Shown here piece by piece: positions 17,472-29,017 of a DNA stretch of 60,419 nucleotides. The stretch is from the NCBI GenBank assembly GCA_024641305.1, contig JAHEDI010000013.1:1-60419 (forward strand), written 5' to 3'. The notes under the pieces were generated by a model. The model had not been told where the DNA came from and ran no database searches. It saw nothing but the letters and a program-made list of their open reading frames with translations. Both the position numbers and the translations under genes were made by a program. Every line of letters starts with the position of its first letter. The stretch's first letter is position 1. The stretch is from a bacterium. Its GTDB lineage: Bacteria > Actinomycetota > Acidimicrobiia > Spongiisociales > JAENVV01.

Positions 17472-19016
17472 TTACTGGGAGCCGTTGGTGCGGTCCCTGG
17501 TATCGGTTTCGGGAATCCCGGTTTCCCAGACGCGTGACAGGATCCGGCGGGCGTGTTCGGGGATGCCGGACAGTTCCACCGTCACGTCGGCCTCGATTGC
17601 CTCCTTAACGGCTTGTTTCAGGGCCACCGCACCGGTGTAGTCGATACGACCCAGGCCTTGCAGTTCGATCACGACCGAGGTTGCGTCGGGGTGTGCGGCG
17701 AGTTCCTTGTTGAGGTGGTCACCGAGGCCGGGCGCCGATCCGAAGTACAACACTCCACGGGGGAGGAGATGAACGACGGTGCCGGCGGTCCACGAGGCCA
17801 CGTCTAGTCGCATCTCTCGCCACAGGTGCACGGCGATTCCGAGGAGCGTACCGAAGATGACGGCTCGATCGATGCGTGGTGCGAGCGCCAGCGTGAGTAC
17901 GAACGTGGTGGCGGCCACGACGCCTTGTAACCGGGAGAGTTTCCAGATATCGAGTAGCGCGGGGAGGTCGATCAGCTTAAAGACGCTGATGATCACGATC
18001 GCGCCGAGCACGGCACTCGGCAACGGCTCGATTACAGCGGCAAATGGGAGGAATATGAGGACTCCAAGACCGGCAATGGCGCCGGTTGCCCTGGTTCGAG
18101 CTCCAGCCAACCTGGCCAGAGAGCTTCTGGAGAACGAACCGCCGACCGGGAAGGCCGAACTCAAACCGGCCGCCAGATTGGCAACGCCTTGGCTGATCAG
18201 CTCCCGGTCCGGGTTCCAGGCCTGTCGGTCCATCGTGGCAAACGTTCGCGAGATAGCCGTCGGTTCGGCGAAGCCGACAATGGCGATAACCAGCGCCGGG
18301 ATCACCAGCGAGCCGAACGACGACCATGGCAGGTCAAGAGACAGGGGAGGGAGGCCGGTGGGCACTGTTCCGACGATGGCCCCGTCGTAACCGGACATCG
18401 CCGAATATGCGATCCCGACGAGCATGGCCACGAGTACGCCTGGAAAGAGGGAGTGGAGCTTGCGGCCGGCGAGGATGAGGACGATGGTCGTAACCGACAA
18501 CGCTACGGCCCGCCAATCCCATGCGGCGGTGAGAGCGCGGCCAGCCTCGACGAGTAGCCCACCGTCGCCGGCAGTGACGCCGAGCACTTTGGGAAGTTGG
18601 CTGGCACTGATCAAGATGGCTGATGCCGCGCTGAACCCGGCCACGACGGGTTGTGACATCAGATAGGCGATGAACCCTCCGCCCGTGAGGCCGAGTCCAA
18701 CGCGGATGACTCCAACCATCACAGCGAGAAGCGCCGCCAGCTTCACGTACTCGGCTGAAGCGGTGGTTGCACCAGAGCCGGCCAGGACTCCAAAGGTCAA
18801 GATGGCCGTCATGGCGACTGGACCGGTCTGCAGATACGGAGAAGAGGCGAAGAATGCGGCGATGATCGTCGGGAGGATTGCCGCGAAAAGCCCAACGTAG
18901 GCCGGCATACCGGCTAGCTGCGCATAGGCCAACGCTTGAGGAATCAGGACCATGGCGACGCTGATTCCGGCGACAACGTCGTAGACGCTTAGTTTGTGGG
19001 CGGTTAACCGTTTCAA
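17472..19016 (-). CDS. SulP-family anion transporter with STAS domain
   Basis: Membrane transporter of 514 residues, family SLC26/SulP, whose members move sulfate or other anions. It has about 12-14 hydrophobic segments (10-400) followed by a cytoplasmic STAS domain (about 415-500). The family features near the N-terminus, AGISVAMVLIPQALAYAQLAG, and GGSFSRSSLARLAGARTR in the middle are clear. The TTG start at 19016 lies 22 bases after the stop of the rhodanese-MBL gene, so the two are probably one operon. Together with the sulfur genes nearby this suggests sulfate handling, perhaps removal of the oxidation product, but the direction is not shown by sequence. Confidence 0.88.
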   Translation of the reverse strand: MKRLTAHKLSVYDVVAGISVAMVLIPQALAYAQLAGMPAYVGLFAAILPTIIAAFFASSPYLQTGPVAMTAILTFGVLAGSGATTASAEYVKLAALLAVMVGVIRVGLGLTGGGFIAYLMSQPVVAGFSAASAILISASQLPKVLGVTAGDGGLLVEAGRALTAAWDWRAVALSVTTIVLILAGRKLHSLFPGVLVAMLVGIAYSAMSGYDGAIVGTVPTGLPPLSLDLPWSSFGSLVIPALVIAIVGFAEPTAISRTFATMDRQAWNPDRELISQGVANLAAGLSSAFPVGGSFSRSSLARLAGARTRATGAIAGLGVLIFLPFAAVIEPLPSAVLGAIVIISVFKLIDLPALLDIWKLSRLQGVVAATTFVLTLALAPRIDRAVIFGTLLGIAVHLWREMRLDVASWTAGTVVHLLPRGVLYFGSAPGLGDHLNKELAAHPDATSVVIELQGLGRIDYTGAVALKQAVKEAIEADVTVELSGIPEHARRILSRVWETGIPETDTRDRTNGSQ

Positions 19017-19038: not shown

Positions 19039-20160
19039 TTACTTCGACAGCGCGCACTCGTTCCGCCCGACTTCGAGCTCCTTGGCTTCCTGTTCGGTGG
19101 GGGTCACCCGCCCCAGGTTCACCTTGCGAATGTCGGCGTAGATTGCCGGCGGGGTTCCGAGGTGGGAGACGACATGTTCGACAAACGCCTCTTCGTCTTC
19201 GATGGACACCACCGGGTCAAACTCAAGAAGGTCTCCGAGGCGTCGCCGAATGGTGCCATCGGCGTTCGACTCGGAACGACTCGTGTAATGGGCTGGACAG
19301 ATTTCCAGATCATGATCGAGGGGGCTCAGTTTGTCGTGAATCGTGTGAAACAGATCACGCGCCCACGGCTCGGTTTCGCCACCGAGGTCGGGACGTCCAA
19401 CGCCAGTAACAAAGACAGCGTCACCGGTCATGAGGAATTTCCCTGCTACTTCTAGCGAAGTGGACCCGGGAGTATGCCCGGGAGTGGCTACGGATCGCAC
19501 GACCAGTTCAACCTCTCCGAATGTAAAGGTTTGGCCATCGACCAGAGTCTCGTAGACAAAGGCGGCGGATTCAGCATCGCCCTCGGCGATGTGATAGGTG
19601 GCGCTCGTGTGCTCTCGAAGATCGCGACCGAGCGAGATGTGATCGGCATGCAGGTGGGTATCAAAGATGTGGGTGAGGGTGGCGTCCATGTCCGCGGCGA
19701 CCTTCAAGTACGCCTCCATGTTGGCCGCTCCATCAATAACAGCCATTTCGTGTCCGCGAGCCCCGACTGCGTATGAGAGGCATGCCTTGGCGGTTCGATC
19801 GAACTGGATCACGAAATGGGTGCCGTCGTCGAGGATCGTGCGAGGGACAAGCGTGGCCGCCCAGGCATCCATGCCCCCGGCAAGGTTGACAACGTTGGGC
19901 AGTTCAAGCATCTCGGCCACCATTTCCGAGGATCCACCATGGGCACAGACGACCACCACATCGCGGTCTTTCGGAACCGATATCTTGGAGATATCCTCAA
20001 GAGCGGTCCAGTAGGGAATGTTGACGGTTTCCACCGGCACCTTGCCCTCGATCTTCCATCGATCGAACGCGTCGGGAGCCCGGACATCGAGGATATAGGG
20101 CGCCTCGGCCGGATCCTCGATCCGGGCGGCGAGTTCGTTGGTAGTCATCGATGAAATCAC
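19039..20160 (-). CDS. Rhodanese / metallo-beta-lactamase fusion (persulfide dioxygenase-like)
   Basis: Protein of 373 residues with a rhodanese domain first (about 6-105) and an MBL domain second (about 110-330). The rhodanese loop is C72-A-H-G-G-S-S, with the sulfur-carrying cysteine. The MBL metal site shows THLHADH (H169, H171, D173, H174), H229 in TPGHTPG and the later TGDAVF and PAHY residues. This fits an iron-dependent persulfide dioxygenase that converts glutathione-type persulfide to sulfite. The start is the GTG at 20160 because AGGAGG (20167-20172) lies six bases upstream; ATG at 20148 is weaker. The domain order is the reverse of known dioxygenase-rhodanese fusions. It is first in an operon with SulP. 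Confidence 0.85.
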   Translation of the reverse strand: MISSMTTNELAARIEDPAEAPYILDVRAPDAFDRWKIEGKVPVETVNIPYWTALEDISKISVPKDRDVVVVCAHGGSSEMVAEMLELPNVVNLAGGMDAWAATLVPRTILDDGTHFVIQFDRTAKACLSYAVGARGHEMAVIDGAANMEAYLKVAADMDATLTHIFDTHLHADHISLGRDLREHTSATYHIAEGDAESAAFVYETLVDGQTFTFGEVELVVRSVATPGHTPGSTSLEVAGKFLMTGDAVFVTGVGRPDLGGETEPWARDLFHTIHDKLSPLDHDLEICPAHYTSRSESNADGTIRRRLGDLLEFDPVVSIEDEEAFVEHVVSHLGTPPAIYADIRKVNLGRVTPTEQEAKELEVGRNECALSK

Positions 20161-20207
20161 GGTGTGCCTCCTGTCTGCATCGACAGGTGAGTCTCGCAGA
20201 TCTTCAA

Positions 20208-20227
20208 GTATTCGAATACGCGCATAC
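20208..20227 (-). promoter_or_regulatory. Inverted-repeat operator of the rhodanese-MBL operon
   Basis: On the plus strand GTATTCG and CGCATAC flank a six-base spacer (7-6-7, one mismatch). Read on the gene's strand, GTATGCGCGTATTCGAATAC matches the site at 22898-22917 at 15 of 20 positions. It lies 16 bases downstream of a possible -35 (TTGCCC, 20249-20244) and upstream of the GTG, where a repressor would block transcription. The likely ligand is the ArsR-family protein encoded at 22491-22814. Confidence 0.6.
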
Positions 20228-20329
20228 AAGTGTGCCATCGGACGGGCAACTGCGCAACAGGATGTTTGTTTCCCTGACTCAGAATGGGGTCTTTCCCCTA
20301 TGGTGGAGAAGCTCGTTGAGGAGGAAGAT

Positions 20330-20776
20330 ATGGGGATGAAAGATCGCACTCGTACCCCGCTGATTGTCCTGGCTGCCGTCGTATTTGCGGCGGTGCTGGG
20401 GGGTGCTCTGTATGGAGCGCTTACCGAACCCGATACCTACGACCCGACCACCCCGGAGGGAGTCGTCCAGGTGTATCTCAAGGCCGTCTTTGATGGCGAC
20501 GAGATCGCCTCTCTGAATAGCATGACGGCTGATCTGGCTGATCGCTGCCGACAGGACTCGAACTCCCTCGACTATCGAACAGATGGTGCCAGGGTGTTTC
20601 TGGATACGACCACGATTGACAATGACACCGCCACCGTGGCCATTGAGATCCGTCATTCGAGTGACGGAATAGATGAATGGATAGAAAACGAAACGATCTG
20701 GCTTGAAAAGTCCGCCGATAGTTGGCAGATCAGCCAGCCACCGTGGCCGTATTGGGACTGTGTGAAGGAGCAATGA
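20330..20776 (+). CDS. Small membrane-anchored protein, NTF2-like
   Basis: Protein of 148 residues. The ATG at 20330 follows GAGGAGGAAG at good spacing; upstream in-frame codons lie in the opposite-strand promoter. One membrane helix (about 9-32, LIVLAAVVFAAVLGGALYGA) is followed by an outside domain. That domain begins TPEGVVQVYLKAVFDGD, the layout of small NTF2-like domains (often DUF4878 or similar). The function is unknown. One base separates its stop from the ATG of the large membrane protein at 20778, so the two are one operon. Their link to the sulfur genes on either side is not evident. Confidence 0.65.
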   Translation: MGMKDRTRTPLIVLAAVVFAAVLGGALYGALTEPDTYDPTTPEGVVQVYLKAVFDGDEIASLNSMTADLADRCRQDSNSLDYRTDGARVFLDTTTIDNDTATVAIEIRHSSDGIDEWIENETIWLEKSADSWQISQPPWPYWDCVKEQ

Positions 20777-20777
20777 C

Positions 20778-22466
20778 ATGAACTTCGTGATTCTCTTGGT
20801 GGCGGTCGTGGCGGGGGTTGCCGTATTCATGTCCGTCCGGCGACCATCGGCCGAAGGTACCGCCGAACAAACCGGCTCAACGATCCGGCGTCTCTTCCAA
20901 TACGCCCTGCTCTTCGGGACGGTTGTCCTCGTCGCAAATGGTCTTAGCTCCGTTCTCGGGCAAGCCTTCAGTATCAACGAGATTGCCGGTGACCGCCGCA
21001 GCCTCGCTCTGCCACTGGCGTACCTGTCGGTTGGCTTACCAGCCGGCCTACTTCTCGCCAGATGGGTCCGCAGACAGCACCTTCGCCAGCCGCTCGAAGC
21101 TGAGTCCCCGGCGTGGACGCTGTACCTGTCGATCGCCTCGATTACGTCTCTGATCGTATTCGTTGTGGCTGCCCTTAGGATGCTTGAGGCGCTGTTCGGA
21201 GCTGAGAGCTACTCCGGTGATGCGTTAGCCAGGATGATCGTCTGGCTCGCCGTATGGGCTGGCCATTGGGTTCTCGCCAGCCGCGCCCCCCGTCAGGACC
21301 GACTGGTCTGGCATCGGCTGGCTGGATCGGCCACCGGACTCGTGGTGGCTAGCGTCGGCCTTGGCAACACGATTGCTTCGGCCCTTCGGCAGCTGTTCGA
21401 TCAGATGTCGGGAGGTCTGGCCGCCGCCAACTACTCGTGGACGTGGCGCAACGGGGTGTCCTGGCTGATCATCGGCGGTCTCGTGTGGGGTTGGTACTGG
21501 ATGGCGAATGCCATTCGCACCGACCGGTCCAGCGGTCCGTTCCAGGGATACGTTGTCATTTTGGGTGTGCTATCTGGACTGATCACGGCCCTGGTGGCGA
21601 CCTCGGGGCTCTTGTATGACGTTCTCGTGTGGTTTCTGGGTGATGCCGAATCATCCGCCTGGAAGCAGTTCGAGTCGGCCCCTGGCGGGGTGGCAGCCCT
21701 TGTCACCGGGCTGTGGGTGTGGTGGTATCACCGGACGGTCTTGAGCCCGGAGCGGTCGGAGGGCCGGCCTGAGATCTATCGTGTCTATGACTACCTCGTG
21801 TCCGTGGCGGGCCTCGTCACATCCGCAACCGGTGCAACGATTCTGCTCGTCGCTTTCTTTGATACCTTCTCCCGCCAGGGAGAGGTTGCCGGTAGCGGCG
21901 GAGGTATCAACCTCGTGTTGGCCGCGGTCACTGCTTTCCTGGTTGGCGTGCCGGTTTGGGGACTGGTCTGGTTGCGCACGCAACGGTTGGCGGCCGGTTC
22001 GGGCGAAGAGACGAACTCGGTTTCACGGCGTACGTACCTCTTCTCGCTTATCGGCGTTGGTGGAACGACTGCCCTCATTAGCCTCATCTCGGTCTTCTTC
22101 TCGGTTTTCCAGTCGATACTCGGAGAGACGAGCAATCTGTTGCGTGACATTCGGATCCCGTTGTCGCTGGTGATAACGGTCGGATCGTTGGCCGTCTATC
22201 ACTGGCTCGTGTTTAAGCGGGATCGGGTGGCCTATCCGGCAGAATCGAGCGGGATCCGGTCGATTCTGCTGGTTGGTGCAAGCGAAGAAGTCGGCAAAGC
22301 GGTTGCCCACAAGATCGGGGCCAAGGTGCAGATTCTTGAGCGGTCCGACGATGCTGAGATGCTCGCGTTCGACGACGTTATGAAAGCTCTCGAAGGGAAG
22401 ATGGCAGCACGGGTGCTGGTGGTAGCCAATGGCGATACGCCTGAAGTTATCCCGCTGAAACACTGA
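20778..22466 (+). CDS. DUF5671-type multi-pass membrane protein
   Basis: Protein of 562 residues with about 14 hydrophobic helices in repeated groups of four, like DUF5671-domain proteins. The N-terminus MNFVILLVAVVAGVAVFMSV and the pattern RRLFQYALLFGTVVLV are typical of that family. After the last helix (about 480) comes a soluble tail of 80 residues with alternating strands and helices (SILLVGASEEVGKAV). AAGGAG precedes the ATG, and the gene is coupled to 20330. It converges on arsR with 24 bases between the stops. No biochemical role is known for the family. Confidence 0.65.
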   Translation: MNFVILLVAVVAGVAVFMSVRRPSAEGTAEQTGSTIRRLFQYALLFGTVVLVANGLSSVLGQAFSINEIAGDRRSLALPLAYLSVGLPAGLLLARWVRRQHLRQPLEAESPAWTLYLSIASITSLIVFVVAALRMLEALFGAESYSGDALARMIVWLAVWAGHWVLASRAPRQDRLVWHRLAGSATGLVVASVGLGNTIASALRQLFDQMSGGLAAANYSWTWRNGVSWLIIGGLVWGWYWMANAIRTDRSSGPFQGYVVILGVLSGLITALVATSGLLYDVLVWFLGDAESSAWKQFESAPGGVAALVTGLWVWWYHRTVLSPERSEGRPEIYRVYDYLVSVAGLVTSATGATILLVAFFDTFSRQGEVAGSGGGINLVLAAVTAFLVGVPVWGLVWLRTQRLAAGSGEETNSVSRRTYLFSLIGVGGTTALISLISVFFSVFQSILGETSNLLRDIRIPLSLVITVGSLAVYHWLVFKRDRVAYPAESSGIRSILLVGASEEVGKAVAHKIGAKVQILERSDDAEMLAFDDVMKALEGKMAARVLVVANGDTPEVIPLKH

Positions 22467-22490
22467 GGTCTGCGACGGAATGCCGGCGGT

Positions 22491-22814
22491 TTACGAGGCC
22501 AGTTCAGCCAGTCCGGCGGGGATCTGCTCGTTCATGACTTCCCGGAGCAGATCCATCGCCTCGATGATCTTTGGCGACGTTACCGAGTAGAACACCTTTT
22601 GGGCGTCCTTGCGAGAACGAACGAGACCTTTTTCCCGCAGCACAGCGAGGTGTTGGGAGACATTGGCCTGAGGCAAGTCGAGGTCGTCGCACAGGTCCAT
22701 GACGGCCAGCTCGCCATCGCGTAACGCGTTGATGATGAGCAGTCGTTTGGGGTCGGCGAGGCCTTTGCAAACGCTCGCATGGAGCTGGATCAGTTCTGTC
22801 TCGATTGCTGACAT
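22491..22814 (-). CDS. ArsR-family transcriptional regulator
   Basis: Winged-helix repressor of 107 residues from the ATG at 22814; a TTG six codons upstream is also in frame. The DNA-binding helices are in LDLPQANVSQHLAVLREKGLV (about 45-65), with the wing in RKDAQKVFYSV. The metal/arsenic motif ELCVCDLC of classical ArsR is here ELAVMDLC, so only the last cysteine (C42) remains. C16 is the only other cysteine. It is therefore unlikely to be an arsenic sensor. A thiol or persulfide switch is possible, though the C16/C42 pair does not match the known BigR/SqrR positions. It is divergent from the DsrE-like gene; the shared operator suggests autoregulation. Confidence 0.85.
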   Translation of the reverse strand: MSAIETELIQLHASVCKGLADPKRLLIINALRDGELAVMDLCDDLDLPQANVSQHLAVLREKGLVRSRKDAQKVFYSVTSPKIIEAMDLLREVMNEQIPAGLAELAS

Positions 22815-22872
22815 GCGCCCATGATGGCACAACTTGTCCGAGAAGAAAACCTTGTGTCACCGGAATTCTTCC

Positions 22873-22901
22873 TTGACAATCGTATGGTCCGCCACAAATA
22901 T
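22873..22901 (+). promoter_or_regulatory. Promoter of the DsrE-TusA operon
   Basis: A perfect -35 TTGACA (22873-22878) is followed after 17 bases by AAATAT (22896-22901) as a weak -10. The operator at 22898-22917 overlaps this -10, so bound repressor would exclude RNA polymerase. Confidence 0.55.
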
Positions 22902-22917
22902 GCGCATGTTCGCATAT
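22898..22917 (+). promoter_or_regulatory. Inverted-repeat operator between arsR and the DsrE-like gene
   Basis: ATATGCG (22898-22904) and CGCATAT (22911-22917) form a perfect inverted repeat around a six-base spacer. It sits over the -10 of the DsrE-like gene and within the region upstream of the divergent arsR. ArsR-family dimers bind AT-rich inverted repeats of this size. The same layout recurs at 20208-20227. Confidence 0.65.
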
Positions 22918-22947
22918 GTGTATATGTCGACATCGGAGGAGACCGTC

Positions 22948-23493
22948 ATGACAACCACTGACTTGGAGGACGCCGTCGCGGCAGCGGCTGAGGCCGCGGC
23001 CGAGGATACGGTGCCCCAAAAAGAGAAGATGGTGCTCATCGCAGCATCGGGTGACCTCGACAAGGCCTGGCCGGTGATGATTCTGGCTACCACTGGAGCG
23101 GCGTATGGGATGGACGTGACTGTGTTCTTTACGTTCTGGGGCCTTGGTATTTTGAAACGGCACGACGCCGGAATCACCGGTGATGATTGGCGCCAGAAGA
23201 TGATGTCCGTATTCAAGAAGGGTTCGCCAGACGGCCTCCAGTTGTCCACGATGAACTTCGGAGGAATCGGAGCCAAGCTCATGAAAGATCTGGCCGACGA
23301 CAAGAAGGTGGCCTCCGTCCAGGAGCTCCTGGAGTTGGCTCAGGGGATGGGCGTCAAGTTATGGCCGTGTCAGATGACGATGGACCTCATGGGTCTTGAC
23401 CTCGATGACATGATTCCCGGCCTTGACCAGCCGGCCGGCGCCGGTTCAGCAATTTCCCTTATGAAACAAGCTTCGATCTCCCTGTTCATTTGA
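22948..23493 (+). CDS. DsrE/DsrF-family sulfurtransferase-like protein
   Basis: Protein of 181 residues. The start is the ATG at 22948, eight bases after GGAGG; the longer frame runs through the promoter and is not used. After a charged alanine-rich N-terminus (1-28), the DsrE fold starts at KMVLIAASGDLDKAWPVMILA. FFTFWGLGILKR and LWPCQMTMDLMGL carry the family's features. C141 in WPCQM is the only cysteine and is the probable sulfur-accepting residue, as in DsrE2-type proteins. In sulfur oxidisers, DsrE2 and TusA exchange sulfane sulfur. TusA follows 61 bases downstream. Confidence 0.88.
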   Translation: MTTTDLEDAVAAAAEAAAEDTVPQKEKMVLIAASGDLDKAWPVMILATTGAAYGMDVTVFFTFWGLGILKRHDAGITGDDWRQKMMSVFKKGSPDGLQLSTMNFGGIGAKLMKDLADDKKVASVQELLELAQGMGVKLWPCQMTMDLMGLDLDDMIPGLDQPAGAGSAISLMKQASISLFI

Positions 23494-23554: not shown

Positions 23555-23779
23555 ATGGCAGACAAAGTTGTTGACGCACGAGGGCTTCAGTGCCCGATGC
23601 CCGTGATCAAAGTTGCCCAAGGCATCAACGAAATCACATCCGGTCAAACCCTTGAGGTGATCGCCACCGACAATGGTGCGCTGTCCGACATCCCCGCCTG
23701 GTCCAAAGACATGGGCCATTCGCTCAAGGAGCAGTTCTCCCAGGAAGGCGAGCACCACTTCATCATTGAGAAGTCCTAG
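23555..23779 (+). CDS. tusA: TusA-family sulfur carrier protein
   Basis: Small cytoplasmic persulfide carrier of 74 residues. The signature CPMP with the sulfur-binding C13 is in DARGLQCPMPVIKV, and the alternating strand-helix pattern of the family continues to HHFIIEKS. The start is the ATG at 23555 with GGAAGG upstream; a TTG at 23540 is in frame but less likely. It is cotranscribed with the DsrE-like gene. In sulfur oxidisers TusA receives sulfur from rhodaneses and passes it towards oxidation; in other bacteria it serves tRNA thiolation. The neighbours here favour the first role. Confidence 0.93.
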   Translation: MADKVVDARGLQCPMPVIKVAQGINEITSGQTLEVIATDNGALSDIPAWSKDMGHSLKEQFSQEGEHHFIIEKS

Positions 23780-23862: not shown

Positions 23863-23895
23863 TTGGTTGCCCACTGCATTGGTGAAGTCGCGTGA
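23863..23895 (+). other. Possible leader mini-ORF before the FeS-NrfD gene
   Basis: GAAGGAG (23851-23857) is followed five bases later by a TTG that opens ten codons (M-V-A-H-C-I-G-E-V-A) ending in TGA at 23893-23895. That TGA overlaps the GTG start of the next gene (GTGA). The large gene has no Shine-Dalgarno sequence of its own, so it may be translated by coupling to this leader. Inference only; a chance ORF is possible. Confidence 0.3.
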
Positions 23896-25439
23896 GATAC
23901 GGTTTTGTCATCGACCAGCACAAGTGCATCGGCTGTCACGCCTGCACGGTGGCTTGCAAAACGGAACACGATGTTCCACTTGGGGTCAACCGAACCTGGG
24001 TCAAGTATGTCGAAAAGGGTGCCTGGCCTGATTCGACCAGGGTGTTTTCTGTTATGCGGTGTAATCACTGCACCGACGCCCCGTGTGTGACGATCTGCCC
24101 GACCAGGGCGTTGTTCAAGCGAGACACCGGGATCGTCGATTTCAATACGGATTCGTGCATCGGCTGCAAGTCCTGCATGCAGGCCTGCCCTTATGACGCC
24201 CTCTATATCGATCCCCACGAGCACACGGCCCAGAAGTGCAACTACTGCTCACACCGTACAGAGATCGGCCTTGAGCCGGCTTGCGTGGTTGTGTGTCCCG
24301 AGCAAGCGATCATTGCCGGCGACCTTGAGGACCCCACCACGAAGATCGCCAACCTGGTCCGCTCTGAAAAGACGAGTCAACGCGCCGTCGAGCAAGGCAC
24401 CCGGCCCAACTTGTATTACATGGGTGCCGATCAAGCGAGCCTCGATCCGTTGGCCGCCCAACCGCTCACCCACGGAGGGATCTGGAAGGACAGTGACTCG
24501 TTCCTGACCGTTGACCCGTCAGCCGACCATCACACCGCCCACCTTCAGGCCGACAGCGGTGCCCCACCCCGGGTTGTCTACAACACCGAACATCCCATGC
24601 CATGGGGTTGGCGGGTCTCGTCGTATTTCTTGACGAAGGGCATCGCCGCCGGGCTGATCCTGGCAGTTGCCATGGCCATGCTGGCGGGTGCTTCGACCGA
24701 CAATGCCTTCACGGCCTGGGTGATTCCGCTGGTGGCCGGATTGTTCCTTGCTCTCACAGGTGCCTTACTCGTGTGGGACCTGAAACGACCTGATCGCTTT
24801 TACTACTTGCTGACAAGGGGTAACCCGGGTTCATGGTTGGTCAAGGGCGCCTACATCCTGTCGGCCTATGCCGCGTTGATGGGCGTGTGGTTCCTGGCTG
24901 GAGTGTTCGGGGCGGATTCGATCGTGCGGATATGCATCTTGATCGGAGTTCCGTTGGCGCTGGCCCTGTCTGGCTATACGGCCTTCCTCTTCGGCCAAGC
25001 CGAGGCACGGGACCTGTGGCAGTCGCCGATGCTGCTCTGGCACATGCTCGCCGGGGCCTTTGCCGTCGGCGGTGGGTTTGCCCTCATCCTGTCATTGTTT
25101 GTTGACCTTTCGGAGACGGCCACCACGGCCTTTTTGTGGACCATGATCGGTGGGTCGGCCGCCCTGGGAGCCATCGCCTGGGGCGAATTGGTTTCGAGGC
25201 ACCCAACCCGCAATATCACCGAGGCGGTCCATCACATGACCCAGGGCGTGTATCGGACCGAGTGGTGGGTTGGGGGAATTCTCCTCGGCGTATTCGCTCC
25301 GATTGCTTCGGGCGCCCTCGCCCTCACCGGTAACGGGGGAGCGGGCATTGCTGCCCTCGGCGGTCTGGCCGCCTGTACCGGAATTTGGTTCTCCGATGAT
25401 GCGATGGTCAAAGCCGGCCAGTCGGTTCCACTGTCGTGA
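23892..25439 (+). CDS. Ferredoxin-NrfD fusion: electron-transfer and quinone-linked subunit of a Mo oxidoreductase
   Basis: Protein of 515 residues joining two subunits that are usually separate. Residues 1-145 are a PsrB/DmsB-type ferredoxin with 16 cysteines for four 4Fe-4S clusters (C12, C15, C18, C22; C57, C60, C65, C69; C89, C92, C95, C99; C116, C119, C131, C135). A linker (about 145-235) leads to a NrfD/PsrC-like membrane part with about eight helices (240-505). The fusion would pass electrons between the Mo subunit encoded 14 bases downstream and the quinone pool. The GTG at 23892 is the only start, since a stop lies three codons upstream. There is no Tat signal, so the ferredoxin end is cytoplasmic. 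Confidence 0.88.
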   Translation: MRYGFVIDQHKCIGCHACTVACKTEHDVPLGVNRTWVKYVEKGAWPDSTRVFSVMRCNHCTDAPCVTICPTRALFKRDTGIVDFNTDSCIGCKSCMQACPYDALYIDPHEHTAQKCNYCSHRTEIGLEPACVVVCPEQAIIAGDLEDPTTKIANLVRSEKTSQRAVEQGTRPNLYYMGADQASLDPLAAQPLTHGGIWKDSDSFLTVDPSADHHTAHLQADSGAPPRVVYNTEHPMPWGWRVSSYFLTKGIAAGLILAVAMAMLAGASTDNAFTAWVIPLVAGLFLALTGALLVWDLKRPDRFYYLLTRGNPGSWLVKGAYILSAYAALMGVWFLAGVFGADSIVRICILIGVPLALALSGYTAFLFGQAEARDLWQSPMLLWHMLAGAFAVGGGFALILSLFVDLSETATTAFLWTMIGGSAALGAIAWGELVSRHPTRNITEAVHHMTQGVYRTEWWVGGILLGVFAPIASGALALTGNGGAGIAALGGLAACTGIWFSDDAMVKAGQSVPLS

Positions 25440-25452
25440 AAGGTCTGCTGAG

Positions 25453-28233
25453 ATGACAATTGCCAAACGTAACCCGAATGACATTCCCCGCCTGTTGCCT
25501 GGCTCGGAACTCATCAACTTTCCGCCCCCCGACCGGTGGGACGACTGGGAAGAGTACGACGCCAGAGAATGGCCGAACAAGGTCAAAAAGCAAGTGCGGT
25601 ATGTTCCGACGACCTGTTTCAACTGCGAATCGGCCTGCGGACTCCTGGCGGTCATCGACAAAGAAACGGGTGATGTCCGGCGGTTCGAAGGTAATCCCGC
25701 CCACCCTGGATCCCGAGGCCGCAACTGTGCGAAGGGCCCGGCGACGCTCAACCAGATGTACGACCCGGAGCGAATCCTCTACCCGATGAAGCGGGTCGGA
25801 GAGCGGGGCGGTGGTGATTGGGAGCGGGTTAGCTGGGAAGAGGCCCTTGACGACATCGCCGGTCGCATGCGCAAGGCGCTCCTAGAAGATCGCAACGACG
25901 AAATCATGTATCACGTTGGTCGACCTGGCGAAGACGGCTTCATGGATCGCACGCTCAAGGCATGGGATGTTGACGGCCACAACTCGCACACCAACATTTG
26001 TTCGGCAGGAGCTCGTACCGGCTACGCCATGTGGATGGGTCACGACCGCCCTTCTGCCGACTTTGCGAATGCTCGTTTCATCCTTTTGTTGAGTTCCCAC
26101 CTCGAGACGGGCCACTATTTCAACCCACATGCCCAGCGGATCATGGAAGGCAAACAGGCCGGCGCCAAGTTGGCCACGATCGATCCGCGTTTGTCCAATA
26201 CGGCGGCGATGTCAGACATCTGGGTTTCCTCCTGGCCAGGAACCGAGCCGGCCCTCCTGCTGGCTATCGCCAAGTTGTTGCTGGATCATGACCAGATCAA
26301 CCGCGACTTTATGAAGCGATGGATGAGTTGGGAACACACGATGGCGAATCGCCATCCGGATCGACCTCAGACCTTTGAAGAGTTTGTCGAGATCCTCAAG
26401 GAGGAATACGTCGATTACACCCCGGAATGGGCGGCCGAGGAGACCGGTGTCACGGTGGATCGTATCCTCGACATCGCCGCCGGGATCGCCGATGCCGGGA
26501 CTCGATTTGCGTCACACACCTGGCGTTCTGCCGGGTCGGGAAACCTCGGCGGTTGGCAGACGGCCCGTTGCCTGTGGTTCCTGCACGTGCTGACCGGGTC
26601 CATCGGGACGGTCGGCGGTACTGCTCCGAGCGCCTGGGATAAGTTCAAACCGGCCCATTGGAACACTCCGCCCCCGCACAGTCGATGGAACGAACTGCTC
26701 TGGCCGAAGGAGTACCCGTTCGCCCACCATGAGATGTCATTTCTTCTGCCGTACTTTCTCAAGGAGGGTCGCGGCAAACTCGACGTCTACTTCACGAGGG
26801 TGTACAACCCGGTGTGGACGAACCCTGACGGGTTCTCGTGGATCGAAGCACTCACGGACGAGAGCAAAATCGGACTGCACGTCGCTCTCACTCCGACCTG
26901 GTCGGAGTCGGCCTGGTATGCCGATTACATCCTCCCGATGGGAGTCGGTTCGGAGCGCCATGACACGCACTCATATGAGACCCATATGGGGCAGTGGCTC
27001 GGCTTCCGCCAGCCGGTTCTGCGGGTCAATGCCGAGCGTGACGGCAAGGTCGTAAACCGCACGTACGAGACCAATCCAGGCGAAGTCTGGGAAGAGACGG
27101 AGTTCTGGATCGACCTTTCCTGGAAGGTGGATCCAGACGGATCGCTTGGTATCAAGAAATGGTTTGCTTCTCCAAACGATCCGGATCGGCCCGTCTCGGT
27201 CGATGAGTACTACGGCTGGATGTTCGAGAACTCGGTCCCCGGTCTGCCCGAGAAGGCCTCTGCTGAGAACATGACTCCGCTGCAGTACATGCGCAAGTAC
27301 GGGGCCGTCGAAGTCGCGTCCGACGTCTACAACGTTCAGGATCGCCCGGTCCAAGCCGATACGGTCGGGTCCGACGGCCTGGCCAGACGTGACGGCAAAG
27401 TGGTCGGGGTCCAAGCGGGTGATGACACCGTCACTGGGTTCGGTTCACCGACCAAGAAGCTCGAGTGGTGGTCCAAGACGATGGAAGATTGGGGCTGGAA
27501 AGATGAGTCAATCCCCACCTACATCAAGACCCACGTGTACTGGCGAGATCTGGATCAATCAGCCGGCGAGCGGGTTCTCGTGCCGATTTTCCGACTTCCG
27601 ACGCTCATCCACACCCGATCGGGTAACGCCAAGTATCTCTATGAGATCAGCCACGGCCACCCGCTTTGGATGAACCCGGTCGATGCCGATGCTCTCGGCC
27701 TCGAGTCTGGCCAACTGGTTCGGGTCACAACTGACAACGGCCATTTTGTGATTCGGGCCTGGCGGACCGAGGGAATCCGGCCTGGTGTGGTCGCTGCCAG
27801 CCATCACATGGGGCGATGGCGCCTCGACGACGAACAGGGCAACGAGCGGTGGTCGTCGGCCCTCGTGGACATTGACAGCCTGGGAGACGGAAAGTGGCGC
27901 ATGCGACAGAAGAAAGGCATCGAGCCGTTCACGTCGTCGGATCCTGACTCGGAGCGCATCTGGTGGAAGGACGCCGGCGTTCATCAGAACCTGGCTTTCC
28001 CACCCCACCCTGATCCGATATCGGGCATGCACGCCTGGCATCAGGTTGTAAAGATCGCGGCGGCCGAACCGGGTGATCAATATGGTGATGTGGTCGTCGA
28101 TACGAACAAGAGCTTTGCGGTCTACGAGGAATGGCTGAAAAAAACCAAGCCAGGTCCTGGACCTGACGGCACTCGTCGACCAACATGGTTGGATCGCCCT
28201 ATCAAACCGACGTTGGATGCATACCAAGCCTGA
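25453..28233 (+). CDS. Molybdopterin oxidoreductase, DMSO-reductase family (SoeA/PsrA-like)
   Basis: Catalytic subunit of 926 residues from the ATG at 25453; the longer frame overlaps the upstream gene. The N-terminal 4Fe-4S site is C55-x2-C58-x3-C62 with C92. The region DGHNSHTNICSAGART contains the likely Mo-ligand cysteine. The molybdopterin-binding domains follow, and the C-terminal dinucleotide-binding domain begins near 770 (YEISHGHPLWMNP). No Tat signal is present, so the enzyme is cytoplasmic. This, with the sulfur neighbours and the FeS-NrfD partner, fits a sulfite dehydrogenase of SoeABC type. A polysulfide reductase or another member of the family cannot be excluded. The end overlaps the next gene by 17 bases. 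Confidence 0.85.
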   Translation: MTIAKRNPNDIPRLLPGSELINFPPPDRWDDWEEYDAREWPNKVKKQVRYVPTTCFNCESACGLLAVIDKETGDVRRFEGNPAHPGSRGRNCAKGPATLNQMYDPERILYPMKRVGERGGGDWERVSWEEALDDIAGRMRKALLEDRNDEIMYHVGRPGEDGFMDRTLKAWDVDGHNSHTNICSAGARTGYAMWMGHDRPSADFANARFILLLSSHLETGHYFNPHAQRIMEGKQAGAKLATIDPRLSNTAAMSDIWVSSWPGTEPALLLAIAKLLLDHDQINRDFMKRWMSWEHTMANRHPDRPQTFEEFVEILKEEYVDYTPEWAAEETGVTVDRILDIAAGIADAGTRFASHTWRSAGSGNLGGWQTARCLWFLHVLTGSIGTVGGTAPSAWDKFKPAHWNTPPPHSRWNELLWPKEYPFAHHEMSFLLPYFLKEGRGKLDVYFTRVYNPVWTNPDGFSWIEALTDESKIGLHVALTPTWSESAWYADYILPMGVGSERHDTHSYETHMGQWLGFRQPVLRVNAERDGKVVNRTYETNPGEVWEETEFWIDLSWKVDPDGSLGIKKWFASPNDPDRPVSVDEYYGWMFENSVPGLPEKASAENMTPLQYMRKYGAVEVASDVYNVQDRPVQADTVGSDGLARRDGKVVGVQAGDDTVTGFGSPTKKLEWWSKTMEDWGWKDESIPTYIKTHVYWRDLDQSAGERVLVPIFRLPTLIHTRSGNAKYLYEISHGHPLWMNPVDADALGLESGQLVRVTTDNGHFVIRAWRTEGIRPGVVAASHHMGRWRLDDEQGNERWSSALVDIDSLGDGKWRMRQKKGIEPFTSSDPDSERIWWKDAGVHQNLAFPPHPDPISGMHAWHQVVKIAAAEPGDQYGDVVVDTNKSFAVYEEWLKKTKPGPGPDGTRRPTWLDRPIKPTLDAYQA

Positions 28234-29017
28234 AACCTCATCGTTAGCTGCCGACGCAGCTGCAGAAGAAGCCAAGATCTGGATCGACCTGTCGAATCAA
28301 TGGCAGGCCGAAGCTCACGCTCACGTGTGGGACGATGTGCCGGGTTCGGAACTGGCGACCATCAGGCTGTATAACCCGGCCAAGGACCTTGGTAGGCGAA
28401 TGGTCAGCTGGTCCTATCCGGTCGGCGAACTGGACTTTGCCGACGTCGCTCGATTCGCCTCCGGGCTCGCTCAGGCAGAATCCGATGCCTGGGCGAACGA
28501 TCAACCCCATGTGGCGACCCGGGCATACGCCGAGCGTCGGTTCTTGATCGGCGATCGGATCTTGCACTGGGCGGTTCCATGGTTTGATGCCATCGAGCGG
28601 TCCCATTCGGATCGGGCAGGCGAGGCCAGGGAGGCCAAACAGCATTTGCTGGACATAGGCGATCGAATGCGGCCTGCTCCGGCCTTGACCGGATCCGAGG
28701 GCTTGGTGGTCCCCGGCTTTGACGGGTACGGCCCATTGGCCCCTGATGTCCCGATGCATGAATTTCTGCTGACGCTATGGTCGGGATCGTTGCTTACGAA
28801 AGCCGACCTGGCAGCGGCTCGGAACTCGTCGGTCGATCGCCGATCCATTGATTCAGCATGGATGGATCACTCCGAAACCCGGTCGGGTCTCGCAAATCAT
28901 TACGGACGGGCCGCCCTCCGTTGGGAATCGTTGGCGGTCGTGTACACCGGGACGGCTCAACTCTGGCTGGACGTCGCCAGTCGAGCGCGCAATACGGCCC
29001 GATTGTTGGCGGCCTAA
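28217..29017 (+). CDS. Unrecognised protein coupled to the Mo oxidoreductase gene
   Basis: Protein of 266 residues that I do not recognise. It starts at the ATG at 28217, inside the end of the Mo-enzyme gene, and has no Shine-Dalgarno sequence, so translation is coupled. It is soluble, acidic and mostly helical, with no signal peptide, no membrane helix and no cysteine. Tryptophan and histidine are frequent in the first half (WIDLSNQWQAEAHAHVWDD, HWAVPWFDAIERSHSDR). The position is where a dedicated assembly chaperone is often encoded, and the helical composition would fit, but TorD/DmsD motifs are not seen. A fourth subunit is the other possibility. Confidence 0.75.
   Translation: MHTKPETSSLAADAAAEEAKIWIDLSNQWQAEAHAHVWDDVPGSELATIRLYNPAKDLGRRMVSWSYPVGELDFADVARFASGLAQAESDAWANDQPHVATRAYAERRFLIGDRILHWAVPWFDAIERSHSDRAGEAREAKQHLLDIGDRMRPAPALTGSEGLVVPGFDGYGPLAPDVPMHEFLLTLWSGSLLTKADLAAARNSSVDRRSIDSAWMDHSETRSGLANHYGRAALRWESLAVVYTGTAQLWLDVASRARNTARLLAA

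Follow-up and report, generated by a model that had tools for sequence, protein, structure and literature searches.

Within the ArsR/SmtB family, the known persulfide sensors are defined by a pair of cysteines in helices 2 and 5 (PMC10509353, PMC10451225, PMC12423496), and the documented DNA site of SqrR reads ATTC-N8-GAAT (PMC9774250). A CXC motif in helix 3 marks in turn the ArsR proteins that sense arsenic or metals (PMC10509353). Many of the ArsR regulators found beside sulfur-oxidation genes lack the two persulfide-sensing cysteines, and other modes of action are possible for them (PMC12423496). In one actinobacterium, Streptomyces coelicolor, intracellular sulfane sulfur is controlled through a gene circuit (PMC7533328). 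No description of the regulon presented below was found in the open-access literature searched on TsoR/RegPrecise and on sulfur in the Acidimicrobiia. What would be new is a sulfur regulon under an ArsR protein, with operators resembling that of SqrR and a predicted repressor devoid of the known sulfur-sensing cysteine pair.

The window (the whole stretch of 60,419 nt that was analysed, from an acidimicrobiial genome) contains an arsR gene flanked by sulfur genes and by two palindromes, hereafter operators 1 and 2. The families of the genes were assigned with Pfam and NCBIfam profiles, and the features of the locus are as follows:

17472 to 19016, minus strand: SulP-family anion permease with a STAS domain (PF00916, 250 bits)
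19039 to 20160, minus strand: N-terminal rhodanese fused to a metallo-beta-lactamase fold (rhodanese-MBL; PF00581, PF00753), first gene of the second predicted target operon
20208 to 20227, minus strand (20227-20208): operator 2, GTATGCGCGTATTCGAATAC, arms matching at 6 of 7 positions, before rhodanese-MBL
22494 to 22814, minus strand: arsR, predicted ArsR/SmtB repressor of 107 aa (PF01022, 61.4 bits), with an invariant C16 in helix 1 and a variable C42
22898 to 22917: operator 1, ATATGCGCATGTTCGCATAT, a perfect ATATGCG-N6-CGCATAT with arms matching at 7 of 7 positions, before dsrE2 in the divergent arsR-dsrE2 gap
22906 to 22925: second register overlapping operator 1, 8 bp further on, scoring 16.3 with the matrix described below and conserved in four related genomes (G001-G004)
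22948 to 23493, plus strand: dsrE2-type sulfurtransferase (PF13686, 157 bits) with a conserved C141, first gene of the first predicted target operon
23555 to 23779, plus strand: tusA (PF01206)
23892 to 25439, plus strand: fused 4Fe-4S/NrfD membrane subunit, PsrB-PsrC-like (PF13247, PF03916)
25453 to 28233, plus strand: molybdopterin oxidoreductase similar to DMSO/thiosulfate/polysulfide reductases, PsrA-like (PF00384, PF01568, PF04879)
28217 to 29017, plus strand: conserved ORF that follows psrA, at the position of a chaperone gene, with no family match

The rhodanese-MBL protein scores 26.8 bits with the NCBIfam Blh model, far under the 625 of that model. Two genes at 20330-22466 (one of 148 aa without a family, the other of 562 aa with a DUF5671 domain) separate arsR from rhodanese-MBL. 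Among the genomes compared, this pair occupies that place only in the genus of the window, where both operators remain, and it was not retained as a part of the system, as other families have arsR and rhodanese-MBL adjacent without it.

Judged from sequence comparison, the two palindromes are very probably binding sites of one small ArsR repressor, which would have several operons for the handling of sulfur under joint control. As a whole, the explanation that we hold to be highly probable is that the adjacent ArsR represses the sulfur operons through both palindromes and that a reduced-sulfur signal releases them. Its parts differ in strength: that the adjacent ArsR is the protein that binds the palindromes is very likely, and that it would act as a repressor is only slightly less so, whereas a reduced sulfur species as the signal is simply the probable choice.

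The membership of the regulator in the ArsR/SmtB family is clear from its HTH_5 domain (the cut-off of PF01022 being 22 bits) and from a structure model (pLDDT 85) that Foldseek relates to ArsR proteins with a probability of 1.00, and a near-palindromic operator at promoters next to its own gene, a trait of the family, also appears to be present. Sequence and fold comparisons place NolR, HlyU, SqrR, BigR and YgaV among the nearest solved structures, and the NCBIfam BigR equivalog NF040642 gives 60.7 bits, under its curated cut-off of 155. The cysteine pair of helices 2 and 5 of SqrR, BigR and SoxR is absent in all 21 orthologues: the helix-2 cysteine of HlyU aligns with N29, a position occupied by N, Y, Q, D or G, and helix 5 contains no cysteine. 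The sole invariant cysteine is C16, which the model places near the end of helix 1, C42 being lost in several orthologues. This C16 was present in 6 of 6 orthologues and in none of 20 further ArsR-type proteins drawn as a sample from these genomes. Distant ArsR proteins linked to dsrE2 in other Actinomycetota and Chloroflexota retain C16, with T in place of H12. Tentatively, C16 may be the sensing residue. Two described classes of sensors were considered and rejected: the As(III)/metal sensors (SSN cluster 1), whose helix-3 CXC is missing here (the stretch reads ELAVMDLC, and no orthologue has CXC), and the RexT-type peroxide sensors (SSN cluster 6), whose two proximal helix-3 cysteines are missing, only the inconstant C42 being found.

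The label 'sulfur-responsive' of the original prediction is read from the target genes only, and it is possible, if rather unlikely, that the palindromes are operators of this ArsR but that its inducer is not a thiol-acting sulfane sulfur; it could then be a metal ion, non-covalently bound sulfite or thiosulfate, or a protein partner (persulfidated TusA or DsrE2, for example). The lack of the dithiol throughout the orthologues and the losses of C42 are consistent with such an inducer, as is the proposal that ArsR proteins without both cysteines beside sulfur-oxidation genes may act otherwise (PMC12423496), and H12-x3-C16 could form a metal half-site. However, the distant relatives that keep C16 have T instead of H12, the helix-3 CXC motif of arsenic and metal sensors is absent, and the best-supported targets handle sulfur, with no metal transporter or ars gene among them.

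Turning to the DNA sites, both 7-6-7 palindromes of the original prediction were recovered, with 15 of their 20 positions identical, and arsR does diverge from dsrE2, as it had claimed. The placement at a core promoter, also claimed, is weak: a TTGACA lies at 22873, but the hexamer that follows it at the proper distance of 17 nt, AAATAT, agrees with TATAAT at only 3 of 6 positions, and a scan for sigma-70 promoters and terminators gave nothing usable at operator 1 or operator 2. In most cases among the relatives, 15-37 nt separate the end of the operator from the start codon, which fits occlusion of the promoter or start site. It is improbable that this ArsR works instead as an activator, in the manner of HlyU, or that the palindromes are non-regulatory, for example a terminator; the presence of the activator HlyU among the closest folds speaks for the former, but the distance to the start codons suits occlusion and no terminator-like site coincides with the palindromes. 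Operator 2 also has an overlapping register 8 bp away (score 14.4; the two together span 20200-20227), as operator 1 does, and among 106 flanks such second registers exceed a score of 10 at 8 bp in nine and at 16 bp in five, compared with 0.4% and 0.2% of random flanks, the count being inflated by related copies. These overlapping registers, at either 8 or 16 bp, could accommodate two dimers per promoter.

As a bare pattern, the pair of palindromes proves little. The window contains two sequences that differ from the perfect palindrome at no more than 3 positions, against an expectation of 1.38, and two are reached in 41 of 100 shuffles, so that the raw statistics were rejected as proof: the pair alone is within chance and the second site needs outside evidence. 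A symmetric 20-position matrix was built, its training set being the regions upstream of dsrE2 and rhodanese-MBL outside the genus of the window only, in which a site was obtained in 37 of 39 cases. In the window, this matrix ranks operator 1 first (25.5) and operator 2 second (20.2), the next places going solely to registers that overlap these two, whereas the best unrelated site scores 7.5; under a first-order Markov model, 6e-5 sites per window are expected at 25.5 and 0.009 at 20.2.

The comparison set comprised 59 genomes, including that of the window, with an ArsR orthologue in 21 and none in 38. Most of the former share the order SulP - rhodanese-MBL - arsR // dsrE2 - tusA - psrBC - psrA, and the scan of relatives that had been suggested, upstream of their dsrE and MBL genes, showed the palindrome as a conserved footprint at two places, between arsR and dsrE2 and directly upstream of rhodanese-MBL, also in families of this acidimicrobiial taxonomic order other than that of the window. 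Four further species of the genus have operator 1 unchanged, and it is conserved in other families. A site lies beside arsR or before dsrE2 in 21 of the 21 genomes with the regulator (20 of 21 in one count, the site of G003 being on another contig). Copies with up to 1 mismatch were found in 15 of 21 genomes with ArsR versus 1 of 38 without it (29 copies versus 1), with Fisher p-values of 1.9e-8 and, without the genus, 3.2e-6, which are indicative only because the genomes share ancestry and the test overstates their independence. The motif also follows the genes when they are rearranged: where psrBC-psrA is on a different contig from dsrE2-tusA (G052), psrBC has its own operator (26.4); where arsR adjoins a different TusA-DsrE pair (G057), the operator is present (24.4); and a second MBL gene in G053 has one too (25.2). 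An operator before sqr was detected in 5 of 15 genomes with ArsR, from the genus of the window and another family, versus 0 of 15 without it. In genomes other than that of the window, a few near-perfect copies have unrelated positions (G004 C145:13762, G016, G029, G037). Outside the Acidimicrobiia, a similar ArsR together with a site scoring 18-21 was found at some loci linked to dsrE2 in other Actinomycetota and on one contig from the Chloroflexota (L172, L173, L178, L179), and further such loci have a related ArsR without the site.

The genome of the window encodes four HTH_5 proteins, and the binding by this ArsR is a prediction, so that a different transcription factor could in principle occupy the palindromes, with arsR as a passenger of the cluster. 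This is a quite improbable reading: the motif tracks the presence of ArsR across the order, it lies at one side of arsR or at both, also where the neighbouring genes differ, as in G057, its geometry is that of the SqrR site, and the sampled ArsR paralogues belong to other subfamilies. The footprints across families, the synteny and the co-occurrence of motif and ArsR thus strongly support the proposal of one ArsR regulon over dsrE2-tusA and rhodanese-MBL/SulP, operons that the original prediction had tied together.

The ranking was extended to the whole genome of the window, covering sites with up to 3 mismatches from the perfect palindrome, and a degenerate-pattern search was run besides. Among the near matches listed, the five best are:

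first, C47:1580, score 26.5, before two rhodanese genes
second, operator 1 (22898-22917), score 25.5, before dsrE2
third, C47:4799, score 22.3, immediately before type III SQR-DsrC-DsrE2
fourth, C64:822, score 21.0, before a DUF302 gene
fifth, operator 2 (20208-20227), score 20.2, before rhodanese-MBL

All five were found again in other species of the genus. That operator 2 is a chance resemblance and control is limited to dsrE2-tusA-psr is very improbable, since, for all that the raw count is at chance level and about 0.5 sites of such a score are expected per genome (0.0035 at the score of operator 1; first-order Markov model), it recurs in G001, G002 and G003 (20.2, 18.6 and 22.1) and the same place before rhodanese-MBL holds a strong, equivalent site in most other families. 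Frequent copies at unrelated places, which would have counted against the regulon, were not encountered either: 3.42 Mb contain only four sites with up to 2 mismatches, of which two precede sulfur-related genes (dsrE2 and rhodanese), one a DUF302 gene and the last an unknown membrane protein. Elsewhere in the genome, sites scoring 15-18 (C53:112095, inside a sigma-factor-like ORF; C53:56688; C80:8780) are no more than chance would give.

Some further observations concern the neighbours of these sites. A near match (16.3-17.3) is conserved before a 257-aa membrane protein with no family match (L045:174-193 on G000 C58, the genome of the window, and L114:2912-2931 on G001 C99), and is possibly an extra member of the regulon or a product of chance. 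Molybdopterin domains of the sulfite-oxidase type (PF00174, PF03404) adjoin the putatively regulated rhodanese genes (L041:15-791). The SQR of the genome of the window matches an NCBIfam model named as a selenoprotein subtype, and a type III orthologue (L098; G010 C31:27378-28613) has one in-frame TGA, and may be a selenocysteine SQR.

The existence of a regulon larger than two operons, predicted to add SQR-DsrC-DsrE2, the rhodaneses and DUF302 elsewhere in the genome, is strongly supported. In the proposed mechanism, an ArsR dimer would sit on ATKC-N8-GMAT palindromes over the start regions of at least four to five operons, namely dsrE2-tusA-psrBC-psrA, rhodanese-MBL-SulP, sqr-dsrC-dsrE2, the two rhodaneses and probably the DUF302 gene, keeping them off when the intracellular reduced-sulfur signal is missing. 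This signal, for which sulfane sulfur in the form of persulfide or polysulfide is the likeliest candidate, would weaken the grip of ArsR on the DNA. Upon release, sulfide oxidation by SQR, the relay through rhodaneses, TusA, DsrE2 and DsrC, the molybdoenzyme and a putative SulP export would rise together. If C16 were the sensor, it might act, for example, by bridging to C16′ of the other subunit or as a stable persulfide, a chemistry different from that of the helix-2/helix-5 dithiol. More speculatively still, this ArsR could stand for a new class of sulfur sensor, with an operator geometry of the SqrR type and a sulfur regulon but a single helix-1 cysteine for sulfane sulfur in place of the dithiol, which would be widespread in the Acidimicrobiia and have relatives in other Actinomycetota and Chloroflexota. 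For an actinobacterial class that is largely uncultivated, the locus supplies a candidate regulon of sulfur control, together with its operator and a protein that can be tested, and with the operator model more sulfur genes can be sought in the Acidimicrobiia genomes of this set.

With regard to the known systems, the top structural match is NolR, an ArsR protein of Sinorhizobium with 36% identity over the aligned part. NolR is a controller of nodulation genes, and is not known to have a role in sulfur metabolism. The regulator of the sulfane-sulfur circuit of Streptomyces coelicolor reportedly belongs to the CsoR family, not to ArsR. That circuit is likewise an actinobacterial control of intracellular sulfane sulfur (PMC7533328). 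The ArsR proteins beside shdr clusters that are devoid of the dithiol share with the one described here the sulfur neighbourhood and the missing helix-2/helix-5 pair (PMC12423496), and the present locus is a clear case of the problem stated in that work, an ArsR beside sulfur-oxidation genes without the two defining cysteines. The persulfide sensors SqrR, BigR, HlyU, YgaV, SoxR and sHdrR (ArsR SSN cluster 4) resemble it in their fold, being among the nearest solved structures, in a small regulon of several promoters and in their targets, which comprise sqr, rhodaneses, MBL-rhodanese and genes for the relay or transport of sulfur, here assigned by operator position. They have, however, both sensing cysteines, whereas the ArsR described here has C16 in helix 1 instead. 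In SqrR, BigR and SoxR, persulfide or polysulfide lowers the affinity for DNA, and a reductant restores it. As for the operators, the consensus ATKC-N8-GMAT has the same spacing as the SqrR site, and its half-site is mostly ATGCG, in contrast to the ATTC of SqrR, which some of the half-sites nevertheless match exactly.
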